NCBI GenBank assembly: GCA_016188005.1
Contig: JACPIQ010000120.1
Coordinates: 1 to 64,000 of the forward strand
DNA: 64,000 bases
Origin: Candidatus Rokuibacteriota bacterium
GTDB lineage: Bacteria > Methylomirabilota > Methylomirabilia > Rokubacteriales > CSP1-6
Direction of reading: 5' to 3'
The notes under the pieces: generated by a model
Database searches by the model: none
Seen by the model: the letters and a program-made list of their open reading frames with translations, nothing else
What the model was told of the DNA's origin: nothing
Part shown: positions 10,806 to 28,610 of the stretch, one piece after another
Numbering within the stretch: the stretch's first letter is position 1
Layout: each line of letters begins with the position of its first letter
Program-made: the position numbers and the translations under genes

Positions 10806-11786
10806 TCAGGAGGGGCGGATGAGCACGACCTTGCCCATCGTCTTCCGACGTGACAGGTGCTCATGCGCATCGGCGACCCTGTCCATGGTGAATACGGCGG
10901 AGATCACCGGTTTGACGCGGCCAGTCGCCACGAGGCCCAGGCACTCCTCGAGCGCTGCCCGGTGGAGGGTCTGGCTCCAGGGTTTTCCTCCGATGTTCAG
11001 CCCCGCGACCTGTAGATTCCTGGCGAACAGTTCATCCGTGGGGAGGCTCGGCAGGGACCCGCTGGCGCGGCCGTAGATCAGCAGCCGGCCGCCCGGCGCG
11101 AGCACGCCGAGACTCTTGAGCAGTACGTCCCCGCCCACGCATTCGAGCACCCGATCCACGCCGGCACCCGCGGTGCGCCGCAGGACTTCAGCCACGAAGT
11201 CTTGCTTGGTGTAATCGATGCACTCGTCCGCGCCGAGCTGTCGCGCGAGGGCCAGTTTCTCCCCGCTCGAGGCTGTTGCGAAGATTCGCGCTCCCCAGGC
11301 CTTGGCGAGCTGCACCGCTGCCGTTCCGACCCCCGATGCCGCCGCATGAATGAGGACCGACTCGCCGGGGCTCAGCGGCGCCAAGGTCTTCAAGAGGTGG
11401 TACGCGGTCAGGAAGACCACCGGGATCGCCGCGCACTCCACGAAGCTCGCCGCCGCCGGCATGCGCCAGATTTCGCCTGCTGGCACGGCCACGAACTCCG
11501 CCTGGCATCCGGCGACGCTGCTGCGGCAGAACACCCGGTCGCCCGGCTTGAACTCGGCGGCTTCCTCGCCGGCCCGGAGTACCGTGCCGGCCGCTTCCGT
11601 TCCGAGCATCGCCGGAAAGGTGCTCCGGAAATGGTAGCGTCCCGAGCGGCGCATGAGGTCTGCGAAGTTCACGCCCGCGGCCTGCACTTCGATGAGGACA
11701 TCGCGGGAGCCGACCGCCGGCTCGGGCGCCTCCTCCCACCGCAGCACCTCGGGGCCACCGACGGCGTGGTAGCGGACGGCTCTCAT
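10806..11786 (-). CDS. NADPH:quinone reductase / zinc-type alcohol dehydrogenase-like (MDR superfamily)
   Basis: The 326-residue medium-chain reductase begins MRAVRYHAVGGPEVLRWEE and contains the quinone-reductase signatures VNFADLMRRSGRYH and LGTEAAGTV. The nucleotide-binding stretch is VLIHAAASGVGTAAVQLAKA near residue 140. No zinc ligands of the alcohol dehydrogenase type are present, so it is expected to reduce quinones or enoyl compounds with NADPH. Its ATG overlaps the stop of the upstream LLM oxidoreductase gene as ATGA, so the two are coupled. The real substrate is unknown. Confidence 0.9.
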   Translation of the reverse strand: MRAVRYHAVGGPEVLRWEEAPEPAVGSRDVLIEVQAAGVNFADLMRRSGRYHFRSTFPAMLGTEAAGTVLRAGEEAAEFKPGDRVFCRSSVAGCQAEFVAVPAGEIWRMPAAASFVECAAIPVVFLTAYHLLKTLAPLSPGESVLIHAAASGVGTAAVQLAKAWGARIFATASSGEKLALARQLGADECIDYTKQDFVAEVLRRTAGAGVDRVLECVGGDVLLKSLGVLAPGGRLLIYGRASGSLPSLPTDELFARNLQVAGLNIGGKPWSQTLHRAALEECLGLVATGRVKPVISAVFTMDRVADAHEHLSRRKTMGKVVLIRPS

Positions 11787-12787
11787 CGGACCCCGCCCGC
11801 CCTCTGCCTCAGCTTCGGAAGCACGTCCGCCGCCAGCATCTCGAGCTGGTCCATCCCCCAGTTCACCGGGTTGAGGATGACGTGCTCCACTCCGCCACCC
11901 ATGGCCTCGATCTTCGCGTTGATCTTCTCCGCCAGCTCTTCGGCCTCCCCGACGAGATAGTACGTGCGCCAGAAGTCCAGGTTCATCCCCGAAATCGTGG
12001 AGAAGTGCGGCACGGCGGCGTCAGGCTTCTCTCCGTTCCGCAGCACGTAGACGAAGTTCGAGTAGGCCTTCGTCAGCTCCTCGGGCTTGCGTCCCTGCTC
12101 CCGCATGAAGCCGTGGATCCGGTCCCAATCGGCCTTCACCATGTCCGGGGTCGAGGCCGAGTGCGGCACCCAGGTGCTTGCGTGCTTCGCGATGCGGCGC
12201 AACACCGGCGTCATGTCCCGCACCGTCTGCGCGTAGATCTTCTCCGAGGGTTGCGTGCCGCCGCCGATCCAGATCGGCGGATGCGGACGCTGCAGGGGTT
12301 TGGGCTCGACCGTAATATCGTGGAAGCGGTAGTACCTGCCTTCGTAGGTCACCCGGTCACCGGCCCAGAGCGCGAGCACCGCCTCGAGCATCTCGTCCAT
12401 GCGGCGGCCCCGCTCCTCGTGCGGGACGTTCATGGCAGCGAACTCCTTCTCGTGCCAGCCGACACCGACACCCAGGAGCGAGCGGCCGCCGGTGAGGAGA
12501 TCAAACGTCGCCCATTCCTTGGCGAAGTACACGGGGTTGCGCAGCGGGAGGACGAGCACGAGCGGCCCGAGCTTGATCGTGCGGGTCACGCCGGCGAGCG
12601 CCGCGAGCAACACCATCGGCTCCAGCCACGTCCGGACCGTCGCGGGTGGGACGACGAGCAGGTGATCGATGCAGACAGCGGAGTCGAAGCCCAGATCTTC
12701 GGCGCGCCGCACGTAGGCGCCCATCTCGGCCAGAGTCGCGGTCTTCGGTCCCAGGGCGAAGCTTGGAAGACGCAGCCCGAATCTCAC
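11783..12787 (-). CDS. LLM-class flavin/F420-dependent oxidoreductase
   Basis: A 334-residue luciferase-like monooxygenase-fold protein. It starts MRFGLRLPSFALGP and shows AEDLGFDSAVCIDHLLV, KLGPLVLVLPLRNPVYFAKE, SLLGVGVGWHEKEFAAM and PPIWIGGGTQPSEKI, the typical order for F420-dependent or FMN-dependent members of this class. They oxidise or reduce alcohols, sulfonates or xenobiotics; the specific reaction is unknown. It is translationally coupled to the quinone reductase gene. No F420 biosynthesis gene is in the window, so cofactor choice between F420 and FMN is undecided. Confidence 0.87.
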   Translation of the reverse strand: MRFGLRLPSFALGPKTATLAEMGAYVRRAEDLGFDSAVCIDHLLVVPPATVRTWLEPMVLLAALAGVTRTIKLGPLVLVLPLRNPVYFAKEWATFDLLTGGRSLLGVGVGWHEKEFAAMNVPHEERGRRMDEMLEAVLALWAGDRVTYEGRYYRFHDITVEPKPLQRPHPPIWIGGGTQPSEKIYAQTVRDMTPVLRRIAKHASTWVPHSASTPDMVKADWDRIHGFMREQGRKPEELTKAYSNFVYVLRNGEKPDAAVPHFSTISGMNLDFWRTYYLVGEAEELAEKINAKIEAMGGGVEHVILNPVNWGMDQLEMLAADVLPKLRQRAGGVR

Positions 12788-12891: not shown

Positions 12892-14859
12892 TCACGGGTG
12901 ACCCGCCGGGACCGGACGCTCCAGCCGGACACGCGTCTCACCGTAGGCGGCCATCTCACCGAAGTTGGACATGATGTCCTCGGTCAAGACGTTGGCGCCA
13001 CCCCCCCGCTTGATCCACGTTCCGACAGGCATGATCACCATGCCGCGGCTCACCCGGTTGTCGACGATCACTTCGACCTTCAAATGGCCCACCGGCGAGC
13101 GGATGATTACCTCTTCTCCGCTCTCCACCCCGTACGTCGAGGCCGTGCCCGCGCCGATCCGGACAGAGGCTACCTTGGGATGATCCTTCTCGAGCATCTG
13201 GGACAGCAACCACTTCTTACTGTAGTTCGTGACGAGGGTCAGCGGGTAGTCCGGCAGGACCCGCGGCTCATATGCCATGGCGGTGATGAACTCGAACTTG
13301 CCGGACTTCGTCGGAAAGGCCCTATCCGCGAAGGGAACCAGGGGCGCCACGGGGCAGCGTACGGGCCCCTGCATCACCTGCTCAACCGACACGCCCTTGC
13401 GCTCCAGCGGGACGAAGATCCGCTTCAGCCACTCCCGCGGCGTGCCCGCCATCTCGTCGCCGAAGCCCAGCCGCTCGGCGAGCTGCTGAAAGATCCACAG
13501 ATCCGGCCGCGCGCCGCCCAGCGGCTCGATCACGCGATTGACACCGCCGATGATGTTGTGCCCCCACGACACGAGCATGTCCTCTTCCTCGAGGAACGTC
13601 GTCGTCGGGAAGAAGATGTGCGCGTAGTCACTGGTGTCCGTGAGGAAGCAGTCGACAACCACGACGAATTCGAGGGCCGCCATGGCGGAGGCGACGAGTT
13701 GTGAGTTCGGTGACTGATTGACGGGGTTGCCGCCATTCACGAACATCATGTGAATTTTCGGGTTCGCGGCGTCGATGAGGCCACGCCCGAGCAGAGGCTC
13801 GGGAATGGAGCGGCGGTGACGGGCGCGCTCGGGAAGCTCCACCGACTTGTCGAAGTGCCGCTGGGTGTTATAGCCGTGCGAGACACCGCCGCCGGTGACG
13901 CCGATATTGCCGCACAGGGCGCCGAGGGCATCGACCAGCCGGAAGATCTCGGCACTGTGCTTGTACTTGTTGAGCCCCCAGCCCAGGAGGATCGCGGCGG
14001 GCTTGGTGGTGGCGTAGATCCGCGCCATGTCACGGATCTCCTGCTCGGGCAGATCGCACGCCGTGCACAACGCCTCCAGCGGACGAGCGTCGAGCAGTGC
14101 CCGATACGCGGCGAAGCCGTGCGTGTGCTTCTCGACGAAGTCGCGATCGTGAAGTCCTTCCTCGAGGATGATCTTGGCCATCGCCATGGCCAGGTGCGCA
14201 TCACTCGCGACCCGGGGCTGGAAATGGCGGTCACAGAGCCCGGCGGACTCGCTCTGCACCGGATCGACGAGGAACACACGGCCGCCACGCGCGCGCACCT
14301 CCTTGAGGATCGGCACGACGTGGAGGTTCGTGGCCATGGGGTTGCGGCCCCAGAGGAACACGCCCCGGCTGTTGACCAGATCGAGGGGGTCGTGCCCGAG
14401 CCGCGATCCAAAATCGAGCGCCTGACCGGCGCGCGCGGCGCCGCTTCAGAGCGAGCCGCGGGGCGTGGTGACACCGCCGAGCAGGTTCCAGAACCTCCGG
14501 CTCAGCAGCTTGGTGGCGCCCCAGGACCCGGTGCGCTGGTAGGCCATGATGGACAACGGGCCGAGCGTGTCGACGAAGTGGCGGATGCGGCCGGCCACGG
14601 TCGCCAGCGCCTCGTCCCAGCCGATCCGCTCCCAGGCGCCCGCGATGCGCCCGTTGCTACGCCGCATGGGGGACAGCACGCGCTCATCGCTGTAGACGCG
14701 CTCGGGGAACCGGTACGTCTTGCCGCAGAGATAGCCGCGCGTGAACTCGTGGGTGGGGTGGCCTTCCAGCCGGATGACGCGGCCCTCCTCGACGTACGCA
14801 ACGATTCCGCAGCCGTCCGGGCAGTCCAGGGTGCACGAGGTGTAGATCCGCTTCTCCAT
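12892..14859 (-). CDS. Selenocysteine-containing molybdopterin oxidoreductase (formate dehydrogenase superfamily)
   Basis: Read through one in-frame TGA at 14448-14446, this gives 655 residues of one enzyme in the DMSO reductase/formate dehydrogenase superfamily. The N-terminus carries a [4Fe-4S] motif, SCTLDCPDGCG with a fourth Cys in GYLCGK. The TGA is codon 138, within TPRGSL-(TGA)-SGAARAGQALDFG, exactly where formate dehydrogenases have selenocysteine (Sec140 in E. coli FdhF) before a conserved block. Downstream are FLWGRNPMATN, MMFVNGGNPVNQSP and a normal C-terminal domain. A SECIS-like hairpin follows the TGA. The His after Sec in FdhF is Ser here, so the substrate may not be formate. 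ATG 14859 has AAGGAG upstream. Confidence 0.85.
14411..14445 (-). promoter_or_regulatory. Bacterial SECIS element (SelB-binding hairpin)
   Basis: Directly after the in-frame TGA the minus strand forms a hairpin with stem GCGCC/GGCGC (14432-14428 with 14422-14418) and apical loop GGUCA. The loop starts 18 bases after the TGA and begins with G. This resembles the GGUCU loop of E. coli formate dehydrogenase SECIS elements, and the distance is within the known bacterial range. Two further base pairs flank a C-U mismatch. Being inside the coding region it must also encode protein, as bacterial SECIS elements do. Confidence 0.75.
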
Positions 14860-15694: not shown

Positions 15695-15787
15695 TCACAC
15701 GTAGAGCCGGAGGATCCCATAGACGACCGTCGCGATCAGCACCGTCGCGGCGATGAGGGTCAGCACGGCGTTGGCCGCGCGGCTCAT
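15695..15787 (-). CDS. Thirty-residue single-pass membrane peptide following TRAP permease
   Basis: A 30-residue frame reads MSRAANAVLTLIAATVLIATVVYG and ends with ILRLYV. Almost all of it is one hydrophobic helix preceded by an Arg, so it should sit in the inner membrane. Its ATG overlaps the stop of the fused TRAP permease gene as ATGA, the same coupling used by other pairs here, which argues that it is translated. It may be a small accessory subunit of the TRAP transporter. I know of no named family. It is too short for routine gene calling. Confidence 0.6.
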   Translation of the reverse strand: MSRAANAVLTLIAATVLIATVVYGILRLYV

Positions 15788-17670
15788 CGCGGCGACACTA
15801 TCGGGACCCCCACCGGATCCGGCCGTCGCAGCTTCTGCATCCCGAGACCGAGGCCGAGAAGGCCGACACCGATCAGGTCGGTCGCGAGGCCGGGATGGAT
15901 CAAGGTCAGCGCCGCGGCGATGAAGATGAGCCGCTCCAGCCGTATCGTGGGCCGGAGGAAATACCCCTCCAGGCCCGCGGCGAGGCAGATGACGCCGATG
16001 GTCCCGCTCACCGTCGCGCGGACGATGTCGATCCAGGCACCGTCGAAGAGCAGCGCCGGCGAGTACACGAAGAAGAACGGCACGATGAACCCGGCCGCCG
16101 AGAACTTCATGGCCTGCCAGCCCGACCCCCACAGGCCCGATCGGCTGATCGAGGCGGCCGCGTACACGGCCAGCGCCACCGGCGGCGTCACCGCCGACAG
16201 GCATGAGAAGTAGAAGGCGAACATGTGCGCGGCCATCGGCATCACGCCGAGGTTGATCAGGGCGGGGATGAGGATGGCCACCTGCATCAGGTACGACGCC
16301 GTCGTCGGCATCCCCATGCCGAGGATCAGCGCTGCCGCCATGGTGATGACCAGCGCCACCGGCAGGTTGCTGGCCGCGACGTCCACGAGGAAGGCGGTGA
16401 AGCGGATGGCCACGCCGAGCTGCATGATCACGCCGATCACGATACCGGCCGCGGCCGTCGCCATGGCCACGGGCACCGTCTGCTCGGCTCCCGCGCGCAG
16501 CGCCTCGATGGCCCGCGTCAGCCCGATCCGTGACTCCGTGCGGAGGTAGGAGAGGAGGATCACCGACACGGTCGACACGATGGCCGCATAGGTGGCCGAG
16601 AAGCCGGCGACGAGCAGGGCGAAGATGATGATCACGGGCAGGAACAGGTGGCTCTGCTGGCGAAGCGTGAGGCCCAGCGCCGGCAGCTCCTCGCGGGGGA
16701 TGCCGCGGAGGCCGCTGCGCACGGCGGTGAAGTGGATCGCCGCGAACAGGGCGGCGTAATAGAAGAGCGCAGGGATGAGGGCCGCCAACATCACTGCGGT
16801 GTACGAGACCCCGAGGAACTCCGCCATGACGAAGGCCGCCGCCCCCATGATGGGCGGCATGATCTGCCCGCCCGTCGACGCCACCGCCTCGATCGCCGCC
16901 GCGGCCTCCGGCTTGAAGCCGGTACGCTTCATCATCGGGATCGTCAACCAGCCGTCCACCATCACGTTGGCCACCGCCGAGCCCGAGATGGTCCCGAACA
17001 AGCTGGACGAGATGACGGCCACCTTGCCCGGCCCGCCCCTCGAGCCGCCGGCCAGCGCGTTGGCGAAGTTCATGAAGAACTGCCCCGCGCCCGACTTCTC
17101 GAGGAAGGCACCGAAGACGATGAACAGGATCACGTACGACCCCGCCACGCCGAGCGGGATGCCGAAGAGGCCTTCGGTGGTGAAGAAGGTCTGGTCGAGC
17201 AGGACCTCGAGCGTCAACCCGCGGTGTGGGAGGACGGGAAACCAGGGCCCGGCCACTGCGTACAGTATGAACCCGACCACGACGATGGGCAGGGCGGGGC
17301 CGATCGTGCGCCGCGTCACCTCGAGCACGAGCAGGATGGCCAGGCCTGCGGCCACCTTGTCGCCGAGCGAGAGCGGGTCCGAGGCCGGCAAACGATCGAC
17401 GACGTAGCGGTAGTTGAAGATCAGGTAGAAGAGCGGCCAGACGGACAGCGCCGCCAGCGCCAGGTCAGTCCACGGGATCCGATCACGCGGCGACCCCGCG
17501 GTGCGGGGGAAGAGGAGGAACCCCAGCACCAGGGAGAACATGAGCGTGATGATGCGGAGGATCAGGCTGTCGGGCGCGGCCGCCGTGAGGCGCGCGTAGA
17601 CGTGGTAGAGCGACATCGCGACACCCAGCGTGGCCACCACCCAGCCTGCGTACCCGGTGAGCTCGCGCAT
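15784..17670 (-). CDS. TRAP transporter fused permease (DctQM-type, TAXI family)
   Basis: The 628-residue inner-membrane protein fuses the small four-helix and large twelve-helix TRAP permease subunits. Segments seen include the N-terminal helices (YAGWVVATLGVAMSLYHVY), FFMNFANALAGGSRGGPGKV, SGSAVANVMVDGWLTIPMMK, ATGGQIMPP-like (VASTGGQIMPPIMGAAAFVM) and ILGMGMPTTASYLMQV, all typical of the DctM family. It works with the TAXI binding protein encoded just upstream, using an ion gradient to import organic acids. The spacing of 35 bases from that gene indicates one operon. Confidence 0.93.
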   Translation of the reverse strand: MRELTGYAGWVVATLGVAMSLYHVYARLTAAAPDSLILRIITLMFSLVLGFLLFPRTAGSPRDRIPWTDLALAALSVWPLFYLIFNYRYVVDRLPASDPLSLGDKVAAGLAILLVLEVTRRTIGPALPIVVVGFILYAVAGPWFPVLPHRGLTLEVLLDQTFFTTEGLFGIPLGVAGSYVILFIVFGAFLEKSGAGQFFMNFANALAGGSRGGPGKVAVISSSLFGTISGSAVANVMVDGWLTIPMMKRTGFKPEAAAAIEAVASTGGQIMPPIMGAAAFVMAEFLGVSYTAVMLAALIPALFYYAALFAAIHFTAVRSGLRGIPREELPALGLTLRQQSHLFLPVIIIFALLVAGFSATYAAIVSTVSVILLSYLRTESRIGLTRAIEALRAGAEQTVPVAMATAAAGIVIGVIMQLGVAIRFTAFLVDVAASNLPVALVITMAAALILGMGMPTTASYLMQVAILIPALINLGVMPMAAHMFAFYFSCLSAVTPPVALAVYAAASISRSGLWGSGWQAMKFSAAGFIVPFFFVYSPALLFDGAWIDIVRATVSGTIGVICLAAGLEGYFLRPTIRLERLIFIAAALTLIHPGLATDLIGVGLLGLGLGMQKLRRPDPVGVPIVSPR

Positions 17671-17705
17671 CGTCTTCCCCCCTCAGGCGTAGCGCGGGCG
17701 GACCG

Positions 17706-18680
17706 TCACTTCAGGAGTCCTGCCTCCCGGTAATACCGCTCGGCGCCAGGATGAAGCGGCATCCCGAAGTTCTGCGCCATGTCGGCGGGACCGATGTTCT
17801 TCATCGCCGAGGTGACGCTCACGAACTTCGCGCGGTTGTCCACGATGGCCTTGGTGATCTTGTAGACGACGTCGGCGGGGAGGCCGGTGGACACGATGAG
17901 GCTGGTCGAGGCCTGCACGGTGACGATGTCCTGATCGATGCCGGTGTACGTGCCCTTGGGGATGACGAAGCGGGCGAATCCCGCATTGAGGCTGGTCACC
18001 TTCTTGACGGCATCCTCGGAGACCGGGAGGAGGCGCACCTTCTGCGAAGAGCCGAGGTCCAGCATGAAGGACGCCGGCACGCCGGTGAGCCAGCCCATGG
18101 CCACCGCCTGGCGGTTCTTGATCAGCTCGACGTTGTCGCTGATCGAGCCGTAGCTCTTCGTGCCCAGCGCCTCCGCGGAGAGGCCGTAGGCCTGCAGGAT
18201 CGGCCACCAGCCGTAGTCGAGGCTGGCCGCAGCCCGCGTGGGCAGGGCGACCGCCTTGCCCTTCAGGTCCGCCACACTGTTGATGCCGGCGTCGGCGGGG
18301 GCGGCGAGTTGCCAGACGTTCGGGTAGTAGCTCGCCACGTACTTCATCTTGTCCACGGGCTTGTCGCTCCACCGGCCCTTGCGCTCCCGTGCCTCGGCCA
18401 TCGCCGTCGACATGGTCCAGCCCATGTGCGCCTTGTCGCGCATGATCTTGTCCATGTTGACGAGCGTGCCACCCGGCTCGACCTCGATGCCCACGTCGGG
18501 GTAGGCCCGGCGGACCACCTCGGCGGTCGCCGCCGCCAGCGGGACCCATGACCCGCCGGAGGGGCCGGAGGAGAAGATCAGCGTGGTCTTCGACTGAGCC
18601 AGGGCCCCGGACGTGACGCCGACAACCATCGTCCAGACCAGGATCGCCATCATCGTGGTACGCCGGTTCCATTCACGCAT
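17706..18680 (-). CDS. TAXI-family TRAP transporter solute-binding protein
   Basis: A 324-residue periplasmic protein with a signal peptide (MMAILVWTMVVGVTSGALAQ) and the TAXI hallmark region LIFSSGPSGGSWVPLAAATA, followed by VEPGGTLVNMDKIMRDKAHMG. The rest (GKAVALPTRAAASLDYGWWP, KAIVDNRAKF) fits the family. ATG 18680 has GGAGGTGG upstream; longer in-frame starts lie within the previous gene and are unlikely. It captures the substrate for the fused permease. The first bases overlap the end of the acyl-CoA synthetase gene by eight, showing operon membership. The ligand is not predictable; TAXI proteins often bind glutamate or related acids. Confidence 0.92.
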   Translation of the reverse strand: MREWNRRTTMMAILVWTMVVGVTSGALAQSKTTLIFSSGPSGGSWVPLAAATAEVVRRAYPDVGIEVEPGGTLVNMDKIMRDKAHMGWTMSTAMAEARERKGRWSDKPVDKMKYVASYYPNVWQLAAPADAGINSVADLKGKAVALPTRAAASLDYGWWPILQAYGLSAEALGTKSYGSISDNVELIKNRQAVAMGWLTGVPASFMLDLGSSQKVRLLPVSEDAVKKVTSLNAGFARFVIPKGTYTGIDQDIVTVQASTSLIVSTGLPADVVYKITKAIVDNRAKFVSVTSAMKNIGPADMAQNFGMPLHPGAERYYREAGLLK

Positions 18681-20898
18681 CTGTCCACCTCCGTTGCGGG
18701 TTTGCGTCACCGCACGCGCCGTCCGGGGACGCCCCATCGGCCGACGGTGACGTGAAGTAGCACTTGGCGTCGAGGACGGCGGCGGCGCCGGGCCGCGGAA
18801 AGAGCCGCACCGGGTTGACGTCGATGGCCGACACCCATGGCGCGACGTCCGCGGCCAGGCGCGAGAAGCGCCCGAGCAGGTCGATGAGGCCCTCCGGGGC
18901 AAAGCCGAGGCCGCGGTGCGCCTCGAGCAGACGTCCCACCTCGCTCTCGCGGACCATGCGGGTGGCGCCCGCCGCATCGAGCGGCGCCAGCCCCGAGGTG
19001 AGCGCTCCGGGCCGCGCCCCCAGGAGCCCGCCCAGGCCGAGCATCACGACGGCCCCGAACTGCGGGTCGCGCAGCATCCCGAGAAAGACATCGAGACCCT
19101 CGCGCGCCATCGCCTGCACCAGCACGCCCTCGATCGCCGCCGCCGGCAGGGAGCGCTCGACCTCGGCGACGAGCGCGCGGAACTCGCGGCGCACGGCGGC
19201 GTCGCCCGACACTCCGAGGCGGATCCCGCCGACCTGTTGCTTGTGGGCGATGTCCGCCGAGACGATCTTGAGCGCGACCGGATAGCCGATCTCGCGGGCA
19301 GCCCGGACCGCGTCGGCCGCGGATGCCGCCCGCCGCTCGGGCACGCCGGGGATGCCGTACAGCGCCAGCAGCCGCTTCGTCTCGTCCTCGGGGAGCGTGC
19401 CGGCCCGGTCGGCCAGGATCCGCTGCGCCGCCGCCGTCGTCGAGGGCTCCGGTGCGGCGACGGCGGCCGTCCCCGGCGCCCGGTCCTTGAACCGGGCGTG
19501 GTCCAGCAGCGCGCGCAGGCCGCGCACGGCGGCCTCGCAGGAGCGGAGCAGCGGCACGCCATGCCGCTCGAGGATGTCGAAGCCGCGCCGCGACAGGCTC
19601 CCGGCCAGCCAGGTGACGAGCAGCGGCACGGGGCCGCTACGATGGAAATCGACCAGGGCCTCGGCGATCTCGCCGCAGTAGTACGGCAGGCTCGGCAGCG
19701 CGACCACGATGCTGCCCACTCCGGGATCGGCCGCGATCACCGGCAGGCAGGCGCGCAGCATCGCCGGCTCCTCGCTGGCTAGCCCCGAGACGCCGGCGAG
19801 GTCCAGAGGGTTGGTGAGCGTGCACAGGGGAGAGACGAGGGGGCCGAGCGCCTGCTTCGTCGGCTCCGTGAAGTCGGCGAGGTCGAGGCCCGCTCCCGCC
19901 GTCATGTCGGCCAGCAGGCCGGCCGCACCGCCGGAGCCGACCGCGACCACCGCTACACCCGGCAGGCGGGGCCGCCGCGAGCCGGCAAGGACGCTGGCCA
20001 CGTCGATCATCTCGTCGAGGTCGTGGACGCGGATGGCGCCGGTGCGGGCGAAGACCGCCTGGAACGCCGAGTCCGAGCCGGCCGCGGCCCCCGTGTGGGA
20101 GGCGATGACCGCGCGCCCCCGCTCGTGGGCGCCGACCTTCAGCACGACGAGGGGCTTGCCGCGCTCGGCCGCCCGCGTGGCCGCGCGCAGGAACCGCGTG
20201 CCGTCCTTCACGCCCTCGACGTAGGCGACGATCACCCGCACACCGTCGTCCTCCGCGAAATACTCGACGAAGTCGGGCACGTCGAGGTCGGCCTCGTTGC
20301 CGCTGGAGACGAGGCAGGCGAAGCCGATCCCGCGGTCCTGGGCGCGGTTGAAGGGCGCGTTGCAGACCGTGCCGCTCTGCGAGACCAGCGCGATGTCCCC
20401 GGGAATCAAAGTGTCCAGCTCGAGACAGCTCAGCAGGCTCGCCCCGACGCGATCGCGCACGTTGATGATCCCGCCGGAGTTCGGACCGCAGATCCGCATG
20501 CCGGTCGTCACTGCCAGCTCGCTGACCCGCTGCTGGGCCTGGCGCCCCGCGGCGCCCAGCTCGGCGAAGCCCGAGCTCATCACCAGCGCGGCCCTCACGC
20601 CCTTCTTCGCACATTCCTCGAGGGCGGCCAGCACGTGGAGGGCGGAGAGCATGATGATCGCCAGGTCGACGGGGTCCGGAACCGCCGCGACGTCGGGAAA
20701 GCACGGATGGTCGCCGATGCGGTCGTAGCGCGGGTTGACGGGGTAGAGGGCGCCCGGGTAGCCGTGCTTGACCAGGAAGCGCAGCGGACGGCCGCTGTAC
20801 CTGGCCGTGTCCGCGGAGGCACCCACGAGGGCGATCGAGCGCGGGCGGAGCAGCGCGTCGATCCCGGGGCCGACGCTAGAAGAGGCGATATCCGGCAT
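18673..20898 (-). CDS. NDP-forming acyl-CoA synthetase (acetate-CoA ligase family)
   Basis: The 741-residue protein has the ADP-forming acyl-CoA synthetase layout. A CoA-binding Rossmann domain comes first (RPRSIALVGASADTARYSGR), then the succinyl-CoA ligase-like part with DIALVSQSGTVCNAPFNRAQ and the phospho-histidine segment VIASHTGAAAGSDSAFQAVF near residue 265. A C-terminal ATP-grasp domain follows (YGIPGVPERRAASAADAVRA, VALKIVSADIAHKQQVGGIR). It joins a carboxylate to CoA with ATP or GTP. Overlap with both neighbours puts it in the hydantoinase/TRAP operon, where it probably activates the acid produced or imported. The substrate is unknown. Confidence 0.9.
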   Translation of the reverse strand: MPDIASSSVGPGIDALLRPRSIALVGASADTARYSGRPLRFLVKHGYPGALYPVNPRYDRIGDHPCFPDVAAVPDPVDLAIIMLSALHVLAALEECAKKGVRAALVMSSGFAELGAAGRQAQQRVSELAVTTGMRICGPNSGGIINVRDRVGASLLSCLELDTLIPGDIALVSQSGTVCNAPFNRAQDRGIGFACLVSSGNEADLDVPDFVEYFAEDDGVRVIVAYVEGVKDGTRFLRAATRAAERGKPLVVLKVGAHERGRAVIASHTGAAAGSDSAFQAVFARTGAIRVHDLDEMIDVASVLAGSRRPRLPGVAVVAVGSGGAAGLLADMTAGAGLDLADFTEPTKQALGPLVSPLCTLTNPLDLAGVSGLASEEPAMLRACLPVIAADPGVGSIVVALPSLPYYCGEIAEALVDFHRSGPVPLLVTWLAGSLSRRGFDILERHGVPLLRSCEAAVRGLRALLDHARFKDRAPGTAAVAAPEPSTTAAAQRILADRAGTLPEDETKRLLALYGIPGVPERRAASAADAVRAAREIGYPVALKIVSADIAHKQQVGGIRLGVSGDAAVRREFRALVAEVERSLPAAAIEGVLVQAMAREGLDVFLGMLRDPQFGAVVMLGLGGLLGARPGALTSGLAPLDAAGATRMVRESEVGRLLEAHRGLGFAPEGLIDLLGRFSRLAADVAPWVSAIDVNPVRLFPRPGAAAVLDAKCYFTSPSADGASPDGACGDANPQRRWTDA

Positions 20899-21952
20899 CC
20901 TCGAACGTCCACTCGTCGACGGCGGCGCCCTCGACGCGCAGCCCGGTCACCCGGGCGCTCACGCTCGCGTTCGTCATGCGCGCGATCATCTCGTGAAAGG
21001 CGAAGGCCGCCCGGTGAATCGCAGGCGGATAGTCGCCGTGGTCGAACAGCTTGTCGGTGCTCCGGCGGACCGTCAGCCGTGACCCGTCGGCGTGGATCTC
21101 CACGTGCTCGTCGGCGAACCCCGCCAGGCGGGCGGCGAAGCCGGCGAGCGCGGCCGCGCTCCGTTCCGTCACCCCGAGCTCGGCCTTGAGCTCGTCGCCG
21201 TACTGCACGGCCACGATGCGGAGGGCCTGCTCCACGATCCGGGCCGTCTCCGCCACGCCGTAGGCCTCGAGCAGCGTCATGATGGTGTCGGAGAGGTAGC
21301 CGCGCGCGAACCCGCGGCGCGTCCGGTGAACGCGCTCCGCCGGCCAGAGGACGGGGTCGAGCACCGGGGCCTTCGCGGGATCGAACTCCGGCGAGCGCGT
21401 GACCGGGCGGAAGGTGATCCGGCGCGCCGGCGGCACCGGGTGATCCAGTTCCTCGAAGAAGCCCTCGCCGTAGGGCTCGCCGTACTGGTAGACCTTGGTG
21501 ACGACGAAGACCAGCCCGGGAGCGTCGAGCGCCTCGGCGTTGTTCGGGTGCCAGCCCGCGTACGTCATGCGCTGCACGCTGGGAGGGATGACCGCGAGGG
21601 CCAGGCCCTCGTAGCCCCACGACGGCGCCAGGTAGCGGATCCACGCCTTGCGCGGGGACTCCTCGATGTACTCCATGCGGAGCCCGCCCAGGATGTTCGA
21701 CAGGTAGTGATACTTGGCGGCCACGATGGCGGGTGGCTCGGAGGCGTCGACGCCGATCTTCTTGAGCCCGTCCAGGAAGTGGCTTGCCTGGTGGCGCGAG
21801 AGGAAGTTGTACTTCAGCTGCTCGAGCGCCGCGACCTCCTTGTCGCGGAGGAGGGTGAGCTGCACGGCGGTGTACATCCGCCGCCAGAGCTTCGCCATCG
21901 TCGTGCACCGCTGCTCCAGCGACCACTGGCTCACGTCGAAGTCGACGGTCAT
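20876..21952 (-). CDS. Uncharacterised protein in hydantoinase/acyl-CoA synthetase operon
   Basis: A 358-residue soluble protein starting MTVDFDVSQWSLEQRCTTMA, preceded by GGGGAGGGGAC. I do not recognise the family with confidence. Residues 1-150 look mainly helical (KLWRRMYTAVQLTLLRDKEV, LKKIGVDASEPPAIVAAKYH). The C-terminal part has ARIVEQALRIVAVQYGDEL and RLTVRRSTDKLFDHGDYPPA, with histidines near the end that could bind metal. No signal peptide or membrane helix. Its position between HyuB and the CoA synthetase suggests an enzyme or extra subunit acting on the same substrate. The overall order resembles carboxylase clusters, but this is only context. Confidence 0.6.
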   Translation of the reverse strand: MTVDFDVSQWSLEQRCTTMAKLWRRMYTAVQLTLLRDKEVAALEQLKYNFLSRHQASHFLDGLKKIGVDASEPPAIVAAKYHYLSNILGGLRMEYIEESPRKAWIRYLAPSWGYEGLALAVIPPSVQRMTYAGWHPNNAEALDAPGLVFVVTKVYQYGEPYGEGFFEELDHPVPPARRITFRPVTRSPEFDPAKAPVLDPVLWPAERVHRTRRGFARGYLSDTIMTLLEAYGVAETARIVEQALRIVAVQYGDELKAELGVTERSAAALAGFAARLAGFADEHVEIHADGSRLTVRRSTDKLFDHGDYPPAIHRAAFAFHEMIARMTNASVSARVTGLRVEGAAVDEWTFEDAGYRLF

Positions 21953-21983
21953 GTCCCCTCCCCGGCCCGCCGGCGCGGAGCCG

Positions 21984-23474
21984 CTAGACGTAACCGTGCT
22001 CGCGGTCCCGCGCGACGAGCCGCGGATCGCGCTGATCCGGAGGTCCGTACCCGCCCCCGCCCGGCGTCTGGATCGTCACCTCGTCGCCCGGCGCGAGCAC
22101 GTGCGACACCGTGGGATCGACCGCCTTCCCGTTGATCCACACGCTGCCCGCGGCGCCGGCCTCTCCGCCCGCAAGGCCGGGCGCGGGCGTCTTCGTCCGC
22201 TCGGCGACGAACAGGATCGAGAGCCGCTCGGGCGAGCGAGACTGCAGGACGACGCGCTGGCCGAGGCCGCCGCGGTATCGCCCGGCCCCCCCGGATCCGG
22301 GCACGAGGGCCTTGGCCGCCACCCGCAGCGGCCCGATACGCTCGATCATCTCCACGGGGGTGTTCGAGGCGTTTGCCGGGAAGCTGAGCGTCGAATAGCC
22401 GTCGCGCCCGGCGCTGGCGCCGTAGCCGCCGTTGAGGAAGAACTGCCCGACGCACCGGGCGCCGCCCGGCATCACGCCGTTGTAGTTGATGCTCCACAGC
22501 GGAGAGCCGGCGGCCGCGATCACACGCTCGGGGACCACGCCGGCCAGCGCCTGCAGGACCAGGAACGGGATGTAGTGGCCGACGAGCATCCGCGCCCCGA
22601 CGGCGGCCGGGAAGCGGGGGTTGAGGATCGAGCCCTCGGGCGCCGTCGTCCGGATCGGCCGGAAGCAGCCGTCGTTGTTCGCCGCGTGGGGCAGCAGCAC
22701 GCACTTGAGCGTGTATGCGGTGTAGGAGTACGTGAAGATCGGCACCACGTTGAGGGCGCGGTCGACCTGCGGGTGGCTGCCGGCGTAGTCGACCAGGACC
22801 TCGTCGTCGCGCACGATGACCGCGGCCTGCAGGCGCACGGGATCGGCGAGGCCGTCAGTGAACGTCTCCGCGTGGTACGTCCCGTTCGGCAGTCGCCGGA
22901 TCGCCGCCCGCATCGCCCGTTCCGACGCCTCCTGGACCTGCCGGGCGAACCCGGTGAAGTCCTCCAGGGCGTACTCCTCGATGAGCGCGCTGACCCGCCG
23001 CTCCACCAGCTCGTTCACCTTCACCTGGGCCATGAGGTCGCCCATGGTCAGGTCCGGGGTGCGCACGTTCTTCCGGATGATCCGCTCGAGGGTCGCGTCG
23101 ATGGCGCCGCGGCTCAACAGCTTCATCGGCGGGATCTGCAGCCCTTCCTCGAACACCTCGCGGGGCTCCACCGAGCGGATCTTGCCGCCGATATCGGGGG
23201 CGTGCGCCGTGCTCGCCGAGAACGCCACCAGGCGGCCGGCATGGAAGATGGGCTTCACGATGCTCACGTCCGGCAGGTGACCGGTGCCCAGCCACGGGTC
23301 ATTGGTGACGAGCACGTCGCCCGGCTCCAGTGTCTCCGGCGGAAAGAGCGCCAGGAAGTGCCGGACAGTGGCCGGCAGGGTGCCGACGAAGGACCCGAGG
23401 CTCGCGGAGGCCTGCGCGAGCGCGTTGCCGCGAGCATCGGTGAGCACGATCGAGAAGTCGTTGGACTCGCGCAC
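21984..23474 (-). CDS. Hydantoinase B / oxoprolinase B-type subunit; true start probably AUC at 23579
   Basis: HyuB-type subunit of the hydantoinase/oxoprolinase/acetone carboxylase family, acting with HyuA in ATP-dependent ring opening or carboxylation. Family segments include VLVTNDPWLGTGHLPDVSIV, HAPDIGGKIRS and the C-terminal ERTKTPAPGLAGGEAGAAGS. Starting at GTG 23474 drops about 35 conserved residues. The frame stays open upstream and reads AIAALDQIALGIVWGRVIGL, then LLDEASATLVRISFSTLV, up to the HyuA stop TGA in the same frame. There is no ATG/GTG/TTG there, but ATC 23579 lies eight bases after GGGAGGG. AUC initiation, readthrough or an assembly error are possible. Confidence 0.88.
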   Translation of the reverse strand: MRESNDFSIVLTDARGNALAQASASLGSFVGTLPATVRHFLALFPPETLEPGDVLVTNDPWLGTGHLPDVSIVKPIFHAGRLVAFSASTAHAPDIGGKIRSVEPREVFEEGLQIPPMKLLSRGAIDATLERIIRKNVRTPDLTMGDLMAQVKVNELVERRVSALIEEYALEDFTGFARQVQEASERAMRAAIRRLPNGTYHAETFTDGLADPVRLQAAVIVRDDEVLVDYAGSHPQVDRALNVVPIFTYSYTAYTLKCVLLPHAANNDGCFRPIRTTAPEGSILNPRFPAAVGARMLVGHYIPFLVLQALAGVVPERVIAAAGSPLWSINYNGVMPGGARCVGQFFLNGGYGASAGRDGYSTLSFPANASNTPVEMIERIGPLRVAAKALVPGSGGAGRYRGGLGQRVVLQSRSPERLSILFVAERTKTPAPGLAGGEAGAAGSVWINGKAVDPTVSHVLAPGDEVTIQTPGGGGYGPPDQRDPRLVARDREHGYV

Positions 23475-23582
23475 CAGGGTGGAGAAGGAGATCCGGACCA
23501 GCGTCGCCGAGGCCTCGTCGAGGAGGCCGATGACGCGGCCCCAGACGATGCCCAGAGCGATCTGATCGAGGGCGGCGATGGC

Positions 23583-25649
23583 TCAGGCCCTCCCGACGCG
23601 ACAGACGAGGTTGCCCTGGCGGTCGACGTGGAAGCGCCCGCCGGGACCGACGACGCAGGTCGAGTTCGCCTCTTCCACGACGGCCGGGCCCGCCAGCTCC
23701 ATGCCGGCCGGCAGGCTCGTGCGGTCGTAGACGTCGGTCACGCAGAAGCCGCCGTCGGGGAAGTAGACGGGCCGCCGCCCCTTCACCGCCGGCGTCCCGG
23801 CCGCGCGCGCCGGCGTGGTCACCGCCTGGCGCCACGCCCCGTCCACGGCTGTCAGGCGCCACGTCAACGCCTCGACGGGCACGCCGTCCATGAGCCGGCT
23901 GAAGAGGGAGCGGTAGACCGTGGTGAACGACGAGGTCAGCGGCTCCGCGTCGGCCGGGCCGAGCTGGCGGCGATCGGGGAGCGGCACGAGCACCTCGTGC
24001 CCCTGCCCTACGTAGCGCAGGTCGGCGGAGCGCGAAAACGTGACACGTGCCGCCTCGGCGCCCACCCGGGCCAGCCGGCCGATCGCCTCCGCCTCCATCT
24101 CGGCGTAGAGCGCGGTGACGGTGTCCCAGTCGAGAGCGTCCAGCCGGCGATGGTACGAGCGGGAGAGATCGATGCGAGGAGGCGCGACCAGCAGCCCCAG
24201 CGCCGACGCCACTCCCGCCGCCGACGGGCAGAGGACCTCCTTGATCTCGAGCTTGGAGGCCACCCAGTACGCGTGGACGGGGCCAGCCCCGCCGGTGGCG
24301 ACCAGCGCGTACCGGCGGGCATCGACGCCCTTCTCGGCGAGGTGGATGCGCGCGGTGCTCGCCATGCCGTCGGACACGGTGTCGTAGATGCCCCAGGCCG
24401 CCTCGGCGACGGAAATGCCCAGCGGGTCGGCGATGTCCCGGCGCACCGCCGTCTCGGCCGCCCGGACGTCGAGCGGCATGCGACCCCCGAGGAAGAATGC
24501 GGGGTTCAGGTACCCGAGGAGGAGGTCGGCATCGGTCACCGTCGGGCGCAAGCCACCCCGGCCGTAGCACGCCGGGCCCGGTTCGGCCTCCGCGCTCTCC
24601 GGACCGACCTTGAGGAGTCCGAACTCGTCGATGCGGGCGATACTGCCGCCCCCGGCGCCGACCTCGAGCAGCTCGACCGTCGGGCCGACGATCGGCAGAC
24701 CGCTGCCGCGCTGGAAGCGCGAGGTGCGTGCGACCTCGAAGCCGTACACCACGCGCGGCTGTTCGTCGTCGGCCAGACAGATCTTCGCCGTGGTGCCGCC
24801 CATGTCGAACGCCAGCGTGTGGTGCCGGCCGCTCTCCCGCACCACCCGGGCGGCGATGAGCGCGCCCGCCGCCGCGCCACCCTCCACGATGCGGATGGGG
24901 AAGCGAAGGACGTCCTCGACCGCGGCCAGCCCGCCGCTCGAGAGCAGCAGCGTCAGGGGGCCTTTGTAGCCGAGATCTCTGAGGCCGCCTTCGAGCCGCT
25001 CCAGGTAGCCGGCGACGATCGGCTGGACGTAGGCGTTCGCGACGGTCGTGGAGGTGCGCTCATACTCGCGCACCTCCGGCGCCACCTCCGACGACAGGCT
25101 CACCGGCACCCCGGCGACGGCGAGCGCTACCCCCGTGTGCCGCTCATGCTCGGGGTTGGCGTAGGCGTGCAGGTAGCAGACGGCCACCGCCTCCGCGCCG
25201 GCGGCCCGGACGGCTCGGACGGCGTCGTCGAGGCTGGCCGGGTCCACCGGGCACTCGACCCGGCCGTCGCCGTCCACGCGCTCGCGCACCTCGAAGCGCA
25301 GGGGCCGCGGCACGAGGGGCGCCGGCAGCTCCAGGAACAGGTCGTAGATGTCGAACCGCTTCTCCCTGGCGATCTCCAGCACGTCGCGGAAGCCCTCGGT
25401 GGTGACCAGCGCCGTGCGGGCGCCCGTGCGCTGGATGAGCGCGTTCGACACGAGGGTGGTGGCGTGGATGACGTGGGCGATGGCGTCCCCGCCCTCGCCG
25501 CGCGCGGTCAGCAGGTCGCGCACCCCGTCCAGCACTCCTGATGACGGATCGCGGGGCGTGGTGAGCGTCTTGCCCACGTGCACGCGGCCCTCGTCGTCGA
25601 CCAGCACAAGATCGGTGAACGTCCCCCCGATGTCGATGCCCAGGCGCAT
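23583..25649 (-). CDS. Hydantoinase A / oxoprolinase A-type subunit
   Basis: The 688-residue ATP-binding subunit starts MRLGIDIGGTFTDLVLVDDE, the phosphate-1 motif of the sugar-kinase/actin-like fold used by HyuA, oxoprolinase and acetone carboxylase. Others are ALVTTEGFRDVLEIAREKRF, LAFDMGGTTAKICLADDE (second phosphate motif near residue 290) and VATGGAGPVHAYWVASKLEI. ATG 25649 was chosen because it gives the canonical N-terminus. Together with HyuB it should hydrolyse or carboxylate a cyclic amide or ketone using ATP. The neighbouring CoA synthetase hints that the product is an acid later joined to CoA, as in acetophenone carboxylation, but this is only inference. Confidence 0.9.
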   Translation of the reverse strand: MRLGIDIGGTFTDLVLVDDEGRVHVGKTLTTPRDPSSGVLDGVRDLLTARGEGGDAIAHVIHATTLVSNALIQRTGARTALVTTEGFRDVLEIAREKRFDIYDLFLELPAPLVPRPLRFEVRERVDGDGRVECPVDPASLDDAVRAVRAAGAEAVAVCYLHAYANPEHERHTGVALAVAGVPVSLSSEVAPEVREYERTSTTVANAYVQPIVAGYLERLEGGLRDLGYKGPLTLLLSSGGLAAVEDVLRFPIRIVEGGAAAGALIAARVVRESGRHHTLAFDMGGTTAKICLADDEQPRVVYGFEVARTSRFQRGSGLPIVGPTVELLEVGAGGGSIARIDEFGLLKVGPESAEAEPGPACYGRGGLRPTVTDADLLLGYLNPAFFLGGRMPLDVRAAETAVRRDIADPLGISVAEAAWGIYDTVSDGMASTARIHLAEKGVDARRYALVATGGAGPVHAYWVASKLEIKEVLCPSAAGVASALGLLVAPPRIDLSRSYHRRLDALDWDTVTALYAEMEAEAIGRLARVGAEAARVTFSRSADLRYVGQGHEVLVPLPDRRQLGPADAEPLTSSFTTVYRSLFSRLMDGVPVEALTWRLTAVDGAWRQAVTTPARAAGTPAVKGRRPVYFPDGGFCVTDVYDRTSLPAGMELAGPAVVEEANSTCVVGPGGRFHVDRQGNLVCRVGRA

Positions 25650-25684
25650 GCGCGAGCGTCCCGCCGGTTTCCGGTCGACGGGTC

Positions 25685-26314
25685 TCAGGACCGGCCGACC
25701 ATCGCGAGGTAGACCTCGCGGCCCATCGCGATGTGCTCGAGGGTCAGCTTCACCATGCCGTGCTCGTCCCGCTGGCGCAGCGCCGCGATCATCTCGGTGT
25801 GCGCCCGGATCGACTGCTCGACGTTGCCCCGGCTCTGCCACACGATGTTCCGCACGAGGAAGGTCCGCCGGCACAGGTCGTCGACCATCTCCACCAGGAG
25901 GCGGTTGCCGCCCGAGCGCACGATCCGGCGGTGGAAACCGCGGTTGGTCGTCACCATCGCGGCGAGGTCCTCGCGGCGGCACGCCACCTCGAACCGCCGC
26001 GCCCAGCGCTCGGTCTCGGCGATGTCCCGGGGGGAGGCGTGCTCGATGGCCAGCCGTGCCGCCATCTCCTCGAGGACGGCCCGCACCGCGTAGATCTCCG
26101 CCAGCTCGGTGCTGGTGAAGTCGCGAACAGTGGCACCGCGATGCCGCGTCGCCACCACGAGCTCCCGCAGCTCGAGTTGCTTGAGCGCCTCGCGCACCGA
26201 CGTCCGGCTGGTCCCGAACCGCCCGGCCAGCGCCATCTCGGTCAGCCGCTCGCGCGGCTTCAGCTGGCCGGTGAGGATGGCCCGCTCCAACTCGTCGTAG
26301 ATCAGCTGGGACAT
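25685..26314 (-). CDS. GntR-family transcriptional regulator (FadR/FCD subfamily)
   Basis: About 209 residues. The N-terminal winged helix reads ERAILTGQLKPRERLTEMAL followed by AGRFGTSRTSVREALKQLE, the standard GntR pattern. The C-terminal all-helical FCD ligand domain begins YAVRAVLEEMAARLAIEHAS and has Asp/His metal positions including FHRRIVRSGGNRLL and RAHTEMIAALRQRD. It is the first gene of the hydantoinase/TRAP operon, with its own promoter and an overlapping palindromic operator upstream, so autorepression relieved by a pathway acid is likely. Start is ATG 26314; an upstream TTG is possible but would place the operator inside the gene. Confidence 0.88.
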   Translation of the reverse strand: MSQLIYDELERAILTGQLKPRERLTEMALAGRFGTSRTSVREALKQLELRELVVATRHRGATVRDFTSTELAEIYAVRAVLEEMAARLAIEHASPRDIAETERWARRFEVACRREDLAAMVTTNRGFHRRIVRSGGNRLLVEMVDDLCRRTFLVRNIVWQSRGNVEQSIRAHTEMIAALRQRDEHGMVKLTLEHIAMGREVYLAMVGRS

Positions 26315-26390
26315 CGGTGCCGCCGCGACGTCCGGCCGCGTGGGCCGGGCGCCGCGCGGCGGGCGGCCCGGGCCGCTGCTTGTCGACTTT

Positions 26391-26402
26391 CTTGTATGCA
26401 AG
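26391..26402. promoter_or_regulatory. GntR/FCD-type palindromic operator
   Basis: CTTGTATGCAAG is a near-perfect palindrome of the form TTGTAT-N-ACAA that FCD-type GntR repressors recognise. It lies just after the -10 hexamer of the regulator's own promoter, where a bound repressor would block transcription start. Confidence 0.65.
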
Positions 26403-26412
26403 ATTGCGCGAC

Positions 26413-26442
26413 AACGTACTACCGGCCGCGGGCGCTTGTCAA
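26413..26442 (-). promoter_or_regulatory. Sigma70-type promoter of the hydantoinase/TRAP operon
   Basis: On the minus strand TTGACA and TACGTT are spaced by 18 bases, about 100 bases before the regulator start codon. The -35 hexamer is perfect. The operator at 26391-26402 overlaps the expected transcription start. Confidence 0.65.
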
Positions 26443-27410: not shown

Positions 27411-28610
27411 TCAGTTGAGCAGCATGTCGTGCGGCCGCGCCGGGCCGTCCGGCGGCTGGCCGAAGTCGACGGCGAAGAGCGGGTCGAGCTTCATGCGGCC
27501 GTCGGGGCCGATGCGGATGAGCCGCAGCGCGTAGCGCGGCGAGTAGTCGATGCTGCTGATCGCCGAGTTCGTGACGTAGAGCCGCCGGCCGTCGTAGGTC
27601 ACGTGCATCATGTTGGCCTGCACGATGCCCCCGACGACGTCGTGGAGCTTGGGCCGGTCGGGATCCGCGATGTCCCAGGCCTGGATCTCGCTGCCGCCGA
27701 TGCAGCTCACGTAGAGGTACCGGTCGTCGGGCGACTGCCGCAGGTCGCCGGGCAGGCAACCCTTGCCGGTGCTGGCGATCTTCCGGTACGTGAACGCGCC
27801 GGCTTTCTTCATCCGGAACATCCAGATCGAGTCGCCGCCGTTGGAGATGTTGTAGCCGTAGCTGGCCTGCGGTGCCAGCATCCACCGCGCGGCCAGCGGG
27901 ATCGGATCGCCCTTGAGCTCCTGGACGATCTTGCGGGCCTTGAGGTCCCAGACCAGCAGCGTGCTGGAGAAGTCCCTGGGGTCCCACTTGTCGAGCGAGG
28001 TCATGAACGTCTTCTGCGAGACCCAGGACGACGTGATCATCCGGTTGAACTCCGGCTTGATCACGGTCTCGTAGGGGTGGTTCGGCGCCTTGTGGCTGGC
28101 GATGAACTCGCCGTCGTTGGTGAACTCCGCGAGGCCGCCGGGGCCGGTGCCGTCGGGGCCGGAGGCCATGCTGATGAGGATGCGACCGGGGATCGAGTAC
28201 GGCGTGTGCGGGCCCGAGAGGCCGGTGAGCCGCGGGACGTCGTCGATCGTGCGGACCAGCTTCGGGTTCATCGGGTCGGTGCCGACGTCGAAGATGAAGA
28301 AGCGGCTGGTGTTGAGCGACGCCGCCCAGATCTTCGTGCGGTCGTCGGTGAAGCCCATGTGGTGCGCCTCGTTGCCGGAGGAGCCGACCTCGACCTTGCG
28401 GAGGATCCTGCCGTAGGTCGGCGAGGCGAGGTTGACGTCGATGACGCTCAGGTAGTCGGCCCCTTCCTTGGCCGGCAGCGTCCACAGGTACATGACCTTC
28501 TCCGGCTGGCGGAGACCCTTGATGTACGGCGACAGGCAGGTCTCGGCGAAGACGGCCCCGCCCATGAGGACCGACGCCGCCAGCGTCGCGAGGATGGTCC
28601 AGCGCTTCAT
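27411..28610 (-). CDS. mtoX: Methanethiol oxidase / selenium-binding protein SBP56 family
   Basis: The 399-residue protein begins with a signal peptide (MKRWTILATLAASVLMGGAV, cleavage near FAE), so it acts in the periplasm. The mature N-terminus TCLSPYIKGLRQPEKVMYLW and repeats such as GNEAHHMGFTDD, SGPHTPYSIPGRI and CIGGSEIQAWDIADPDRPK match the SELENBP1/MtoX beta-propeller family. Members oxidise methanethiol to formaldehyde, sulfide and peroxide. Export and pairing with SCO1 follow the bacterial mtoX arrangement; the mauG-like partner seen in some operons is absent here. The stop is followed 36 bases later by the SCO1 start. Confidence 0.83.
   Translation of the reverse strand: MKRWTILATLAASVLMGGAVFAETCLSPYIKGLRQPEKVMYLWTLPAKEGADYLSVIDVNLASPTYGRILRKVEVGSSGNEAHHMGFTDDRTKIWAASLNTSRFFIFDVGTDPMNPKLVRTIDDVPRLTGLSGPHTPYSIPGRILISMASGPDGTGPGGLAEFTNDGEFIASHKAPNHPYETVIKPEFNRMITSSWVSQKTFMTSLDKWDPRDFSSTLLVWDLKARKIVQELKGDPIPLAARWMLAPQASYGYNISNGGDSIWMFRMKKAGAFTYRKIASTGKGCLPGDLRQSPDDRYLYVSCIGGSEIQAWDIADPDRPKLHDVVGGIVQANMMHVTYDGRRLYVTNSAISSIDYSPRYALRLIRIGPDGRMKLDPLFAVDFGQPPDGPARPHDMLLN

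Follow-up and report, generated by a model that had tools for sequence, protein, structure and literature searches.

Does the TGA that interrupts a molybdopterin oxidoreductase gene on the minus strand of this Rokubacteria contig encode selenocysteine (Sec), and, if so, what kind of enzyme would the protein be? In the molybdopterin oxidoreductase (MopB, DMSO reductase) superfamily, a superfamily study named FwdB, FdhG, and cytoplasmic formate dehydrogenases (FDHs) as the sole members with Sec/Cys (PMC10100899). Of the 119 prokaryotic selenoprotein families in a 2026 catalogue, FdhA and FwdB, both with a UHxP motif, are the only ones from this superfamily (PMC13188914). Sec has been proposed as the ancestral ligand in the superfamily (PMC7331816). 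Here we analyzed a window of 64,000 nucleotides from a Rokubacteria genome that is 98% complete. We propose, with a probability of about 85%, that the gene encodes a genuine selenoprotein, a Sec-ligated, Cys-derived MopB oxidoreductase whose substrate is most likely not formate.

Gene structure and the in-frame TGA

The gene (12892..14859, minus strand) runs from an ATG at 14859 to a TGA stop at 12894-12892 and encodes a single protein of 655 residues, in which the sole internal TGA is codon 138 (14446..14448, minus strand). Standard gene calling returned two ORFs, 14904-14446 and 14361-12892, as the first-pass annotation of this DNA had anticipated. That annotation had also assigned both pieces to one molybdopterin oxidoreductase in the same frame, and the Pfam search agrees: PF04879 (residues 3-57), PF00384 (60-463), and PF01568 (556-640) follow in the canonical order, and the PF00384 match spans the TGA codon. 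With the Molybdop_Fe4S4, Molybdopterin, and Molydop_binding domains in order and a MopB fold, the protein belongs to the MopB superfamily. Its AlphaFold2 model (pLDDT 90.8, pTM 0.91) was matched by Foldseek to FDHs, DMSO/TMAO reductases, nitrate reductase, and acetylene hydratase alike; as the MopB fold is common to the whole superfamily, fold matches cannot tell subfamilies apart. No Tat signal is visible in the protein.

The counterpart of codon 138 in E. coli FdhF is Sec140, and the N-terminal cysteines C9, C13, C17, and C45 align with the FdhF [4Fe-4S] cysteines C8, C11, C15, and C42, so the proposed correspondence with Sec140, and with it the Mo/W ligand position, stands. The residue at this position was Cys or Sec in 17 of 17 aligned proteins, E. 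coli FdhF included, and the same alignment showed no variation in the four cluster cysteines or in the Lys that follows them. The TGA recurs at the same codon in L030 (= L098), from a Rokubacteria genome of another genus in the same family. No TGA genes other than these two are known, and both come from metagenome-assembled genomes of a single family.

The orthologs from Rubritepida (L031) and Afipia (L032) have TGC at this codon, and a third alphaproteobacterial ortholog, L115, from a genome of the Rubritepida order, also has Cys. These three uncharacterized proteins are about 70% identical to the Rokubacteria protein along their full length and have the motif GS[LI]-C/U-SGA[AS]RAG in common with it, with Cys where the latter would have Sec. 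The 1100-aa open frame of L115 was considered as a fusion and rejected, the extra part being an upstream open stretch. A wider search added one Cys ortholog from 397 sampled genomes of the Rubritepida order and none from 397 of the Afipia order. Five plasmid matches that were inspected, with up to 33% identity, were Cys homologs only, and homologs on two clostridial plasmids likewise have Cys. The close, well-aligned relatives thus show Cys or Sec at codon 138 and no other residue. Some distant pairwise alignments (22-30% identity) place other residues opposite this codon, which is alignment slippage.

The SECIS element

The first-pass annotation described a textbook bacterial SECIS hairpin downstream of the TGA. 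The hairpin and its placement are real: GCGCC-GGUCA-GGCGC (14418..14432, minus strand) has its loop starting at nt 22 (with the U of UGA as nt 1), exactly where the GGUC of FdhF begins, and it conforms to the published bSECIS model (PMC13188914) with a GGUCA loop, 5 bp, 18 nt, and -9.1 kcal/mol. Its weight as a stand-alone signal was overstated, however. Some hairpin satisfies a loose bSECIS model at 19% of all TGAs in this GC-rich window, which makes the hairpin taken alone weak evidence, and the single-sequence fold including the UGA is no more stable than expected (z 0.33) and faces a competing minimum. We therefore rejected fold stability as proof in its own right. Only 5 of the 1342 TGAs in the window satisfy the stricter combination of a loop starting with GG exactly at nt 22 and a stem of 5 bp or more. 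Rfam gave no match at the locus at gathering thresholds.

The comparison of the two TGA genes is more telling. Their DNA is 72% identical overall, and identical residues are encoded by matching codons in 53% of cases. The longest identical run in the gene is a stretch of 38 nt (14411..14448, minus strand) that covers the UGA and the SECIS region, and the two genes use the same codons for the 11 residues that follow the TGA, which has a chance probability of ~4e-5 given per-amino-acid codon match rates. The same stretch is ordinary in the comparison with the Cys orthologs, and the hairpin, identical in L030, is absent from both Cys orthologs tested (L031 and L032). It is this comparative identity, and not the hairpin alone, that lifts the SECIS evidence beyond chance.

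Selenocysteine machinery

The Sec machinery, for which the earlier annotation had called for a search, is complete in the genome. We found a tRNA-Sec with a TCA anticodon (69 bits against a cut-off of 47), SelB (364 bits, cut-off 242), SelA (577 bits, cut-off 268), and SelD (348 bits), with selA and selB near each other on one contig. SelB was also above the cut-off in the second TGA genome, and it was not above it in the two Cys-ortholog genomes tested (Rubritepida and Afipia).

Other genes of the genome also carry in-frame TGAs. The selD gene itself (L099, G000:C86:102037-102972) has one (CAG-U-ASK), followed by a strong hairpin whose loop starts with G, and so encodes a Sec-type SelD. Two FdnG-like FDH alpha genes, L119 (G000:C8:92359) and L120 (G000:C49:14735), have an in-frame TGA in the UH motif, and L120 is followed by the hairpin GUCCCC-GGACU-GGGGAC with its loop at nt 22; both look like selenoprotein genes as well. 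About 470 nt upstream of the tRNA-Sec gene lies a gene for a phage-type tyrosine integrase (L017:7722-8819, G000:C4), which suggests that an element was inserted beside the tRNA-Sec gene.

Relationship to known Mo/W enzymes

The protein shares several features with FdhF and the Sec-containing FDH alpha family (TIGR01591/TIGR01553), namely the putative Sec at the Mo/W ligand, the four cluster cysteines, the Lys after the fourth cysteine, an identical distance to the bSECIS loop, and the same fold. However, it is only 28% identical to FdhF, and its cluster motif is CX3CX3C, whereas that of FdhF is CX2CX3C. The catalytic residues also differ. As the first-pass annotation had noted, a Ser replaces the catalytic His, with Ser139 aligned to FdhF His141; in addition, Tyr330 takes the place of Arg333. 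All orthologs have Ser at the first of these positions and Tyr or Phe at the second, and none has the FDH residues. The FDH alpha model (TIGR01591) was the best NCBIfam match, at 260.3 bits, far below its curated cut-off of 666.25. The suggestion that the substrate is not formate thus gained support.

Apart from the FDHs, FwdB alone among MopB families is catalogued with Sec/Cys. The Rokubacteria protein reads U-S-G-A where FwdB has UHxP (PMC13188914, Table 1), and no FwdB model was among the 25 NCBIfam matches listed for it.

In the tree, the protein falls within a clade of five orthologs (support 100/100) whose internal branching order is not resolved. This clade adjoins Cys proteins of Rokubacteria and Chloroflexota, apart from FdhF and FdnG, a deep placement that is tentative because the branches of the E. 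coli references are long. Among its Rokubacteria neighbors is a sister group (L034, L102, and L103) with 39-41% identity, the same architecture, a Cys ligand, and the motif GR[FY]C[AG]GE; SelB is present in the genomes of L102 and L103. A TGA in L102 was considered as a Sec codon and rejected, being simply the terminal stop of a gene whose ligand codon is TGC. As every near outgroup has Cys, the Sec would have been gained from Cys. By the tests available, the protein is not an FDH, given its residues, its score, and its place in a clade that otherwise has Cys throughout. We judge it to represent a new MopB subfamily, one that contains Sec as the result of a Cys-to-Sec change.

Gene neighborhood

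The next gene downstream (11783..12787, minus strand) encodes an LLM-class F420-dependent oxidoreductase (TIGR03619) and is overlapped by a gene for a zinc-type/quinone-oxidoreductase-like dehydrogenase (10806..11786, minus strand). Both may be co-transcribed with the Sec MopB gene; neither association is conserved in the orthologs. The wider neighborhood contains TRAP-TAXI transporter, acyl-CoA synthetase, and hydantoinase/caprolactamase-like genes in the window, cyclase and ABC transporter genes around L030, a Rieske oxygenase and hydantoinase B in Afipia, and a TctC receptor in Rubritepida. The neighborhoods of the window gene and its orthologs revealed neither a conserved operon partner nor a substrate gene, and we rejected gene neighborhood as a guide to the substrate because the orthologs share no conserved partner.

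Two other features of the window were recorded. An apparent catabolic cluster (15784-26414, minus strand) encodes A and B subunits of a hydantoinase/caprolactamase-like enzyme, an ADP-forming acyl-CoA synthetase, a TAXI solute receptor, and a fused TRAP permease, along with a 358-aa protein of unknown function (20876-21952, minus strand), located between hydantoinase B and the acyl-CoA synthetase, that matches nothing in Pfam or NCBIfam. A gene at 27411-28610 (minus strand), about 13 kb from the Sec gene, encodes an SBP56/methanethiol oxidase-like protein, a homolog of selenium-binding proteins (PF05694, 180 bits; NF052453, 255 bits, below the cut-off of 650).

Discussion

On sequence evidence, the Sec reading of TGA 138 is very well supported. 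Of the findings that the first-pass annotation said would refute it, a lack of Sec machinery and a variable residue at this codon were both contradicted by the data. The UGA would be decoded by tRNA-Sec, SelA, SelD, and SelB acting on the bSECIS hairpin directly downstream, and the inserted Sec would be the protein ligand of the Mo/W atom in a bis-PGD cofactor. We infer a cytoplasmic, [4Fe-4S]-containing, and apparently single-subunit oxidoreductase of the DMSO reductase superfamily. It would most likely oxidize or reduce a small organic substrate other than formate, with electrons passing via the [4Fe-4S] cluster to a separate carrier, and it would have originated by replacement of Cys with Sec inside an uncharacterized, otherwise Cys-dependent MopB clade.

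Four other explanations deserve consideration. The protein could be a Sec enzyme that performs no redox reaction, in the manner of acetylene hydratase or transhydroxylase, with the metal activating water or a hydroxyl group. An apparently single subunit without a conserved electron-transfer partner fits this possibility, and both the sequence and the fold matches include acetylene hydratase. However, that similarity is distant (110.9 bits, compared with 157.7 for FdhF), a substrate clue is absent, and the Lys beside the cluster (K47) is kept, which fits electron transfer although it does not prove it. We consider a non-redox enzyme unlikely.

Somewhat less probable again is an atypical Sec-containing FDH that does not need the usual His and Arg. 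The FDH alpha family provides the best NCBIfam model, FdhF and MeFDH1 are among the top PDB sequence and fold matches, and the other Sec-containing MopB enzymes in the literature consulted are all formate/CO2 enzymes (PMC10100899, PMC13188914). Against these points, the score falls some 400 bits short of the family cut-off, both catalytic residues are replaced in every ortholog, the tree groups the protein with Cys proteins and away from FdhF and FdnG, and the same genome encodes separate Sec-type FDHs.

A reading of the TGA as a genuine stop, or else as an artifact of assembly or the lesion of a pseudogene, leaving two halves that are separate or dead, would agree with the two ORFs of standard gene calling, with the unexceptional single-sequence fold, and with genes known from metagenome-assembled genomes alone. 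It is already contradicted, and we regard it as very improbable. A genome from a different genus has the same TGA in a gene whose protein is 72% identical, and the longest run of identity in the gene starts at the TGA. In the comparison of these two genes, dN/dS was 0.25 upstream of the TGA and 0.14 downstream, figures that are rough because synonymous sites are close to saturation; purifying selection acts on both parts of the gene flanking the TGA. The complete Sec machinery also speaks against a lesion.

Finally, decoding of the TGA as Trp or Cys through code reassignment or suppression would keep the frame open but is scarcely credible, as TGA ends this very gene as an ordinary stop (12894-12892), relatives carry Cys and never Trp at codon 138, and the machinery and SECIS evidence indicate Sec.

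We return to the Sec-ligated, non-formate oxidoreductase as the preferred reading. The gene probably defines a selenoprotein family that is new and that arose through a recent Cys-to-Sec gain in Rokubacteria; it would provide the first Mo/W bis-PGD enzyme with a Sec ligand to act outside formate/CO2 chemistry. A text search of the literature for Rokubacteria and selenocysteine returned nothing relevant. The 2026 review cites a Methylomirabilota metagenome-assembled genome with 63 predicted selenoprotein genes (PMC13188914), and the gene described here may already be among them. Such a family is easily missed because gene callers split the gene at the TGA.

From a biological perspective, a Sec enzyme without the FDH catalytic residues would form a natural Sec/Cys pair with its 70%-identical Cys orthologs. 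If our reading is correct, near-identical enzymes acting on a non-formate substrate would offer a comparison of Sec with Cys at one and the same metal. This bears on why some Mo/W enzymes use selenium, as Sec at this site has so far been tied to formate/CO2 enzymes (PMC10100899, PMC13188914), and it suggests that Sec can be gained at the ligand site within a Cys clade.
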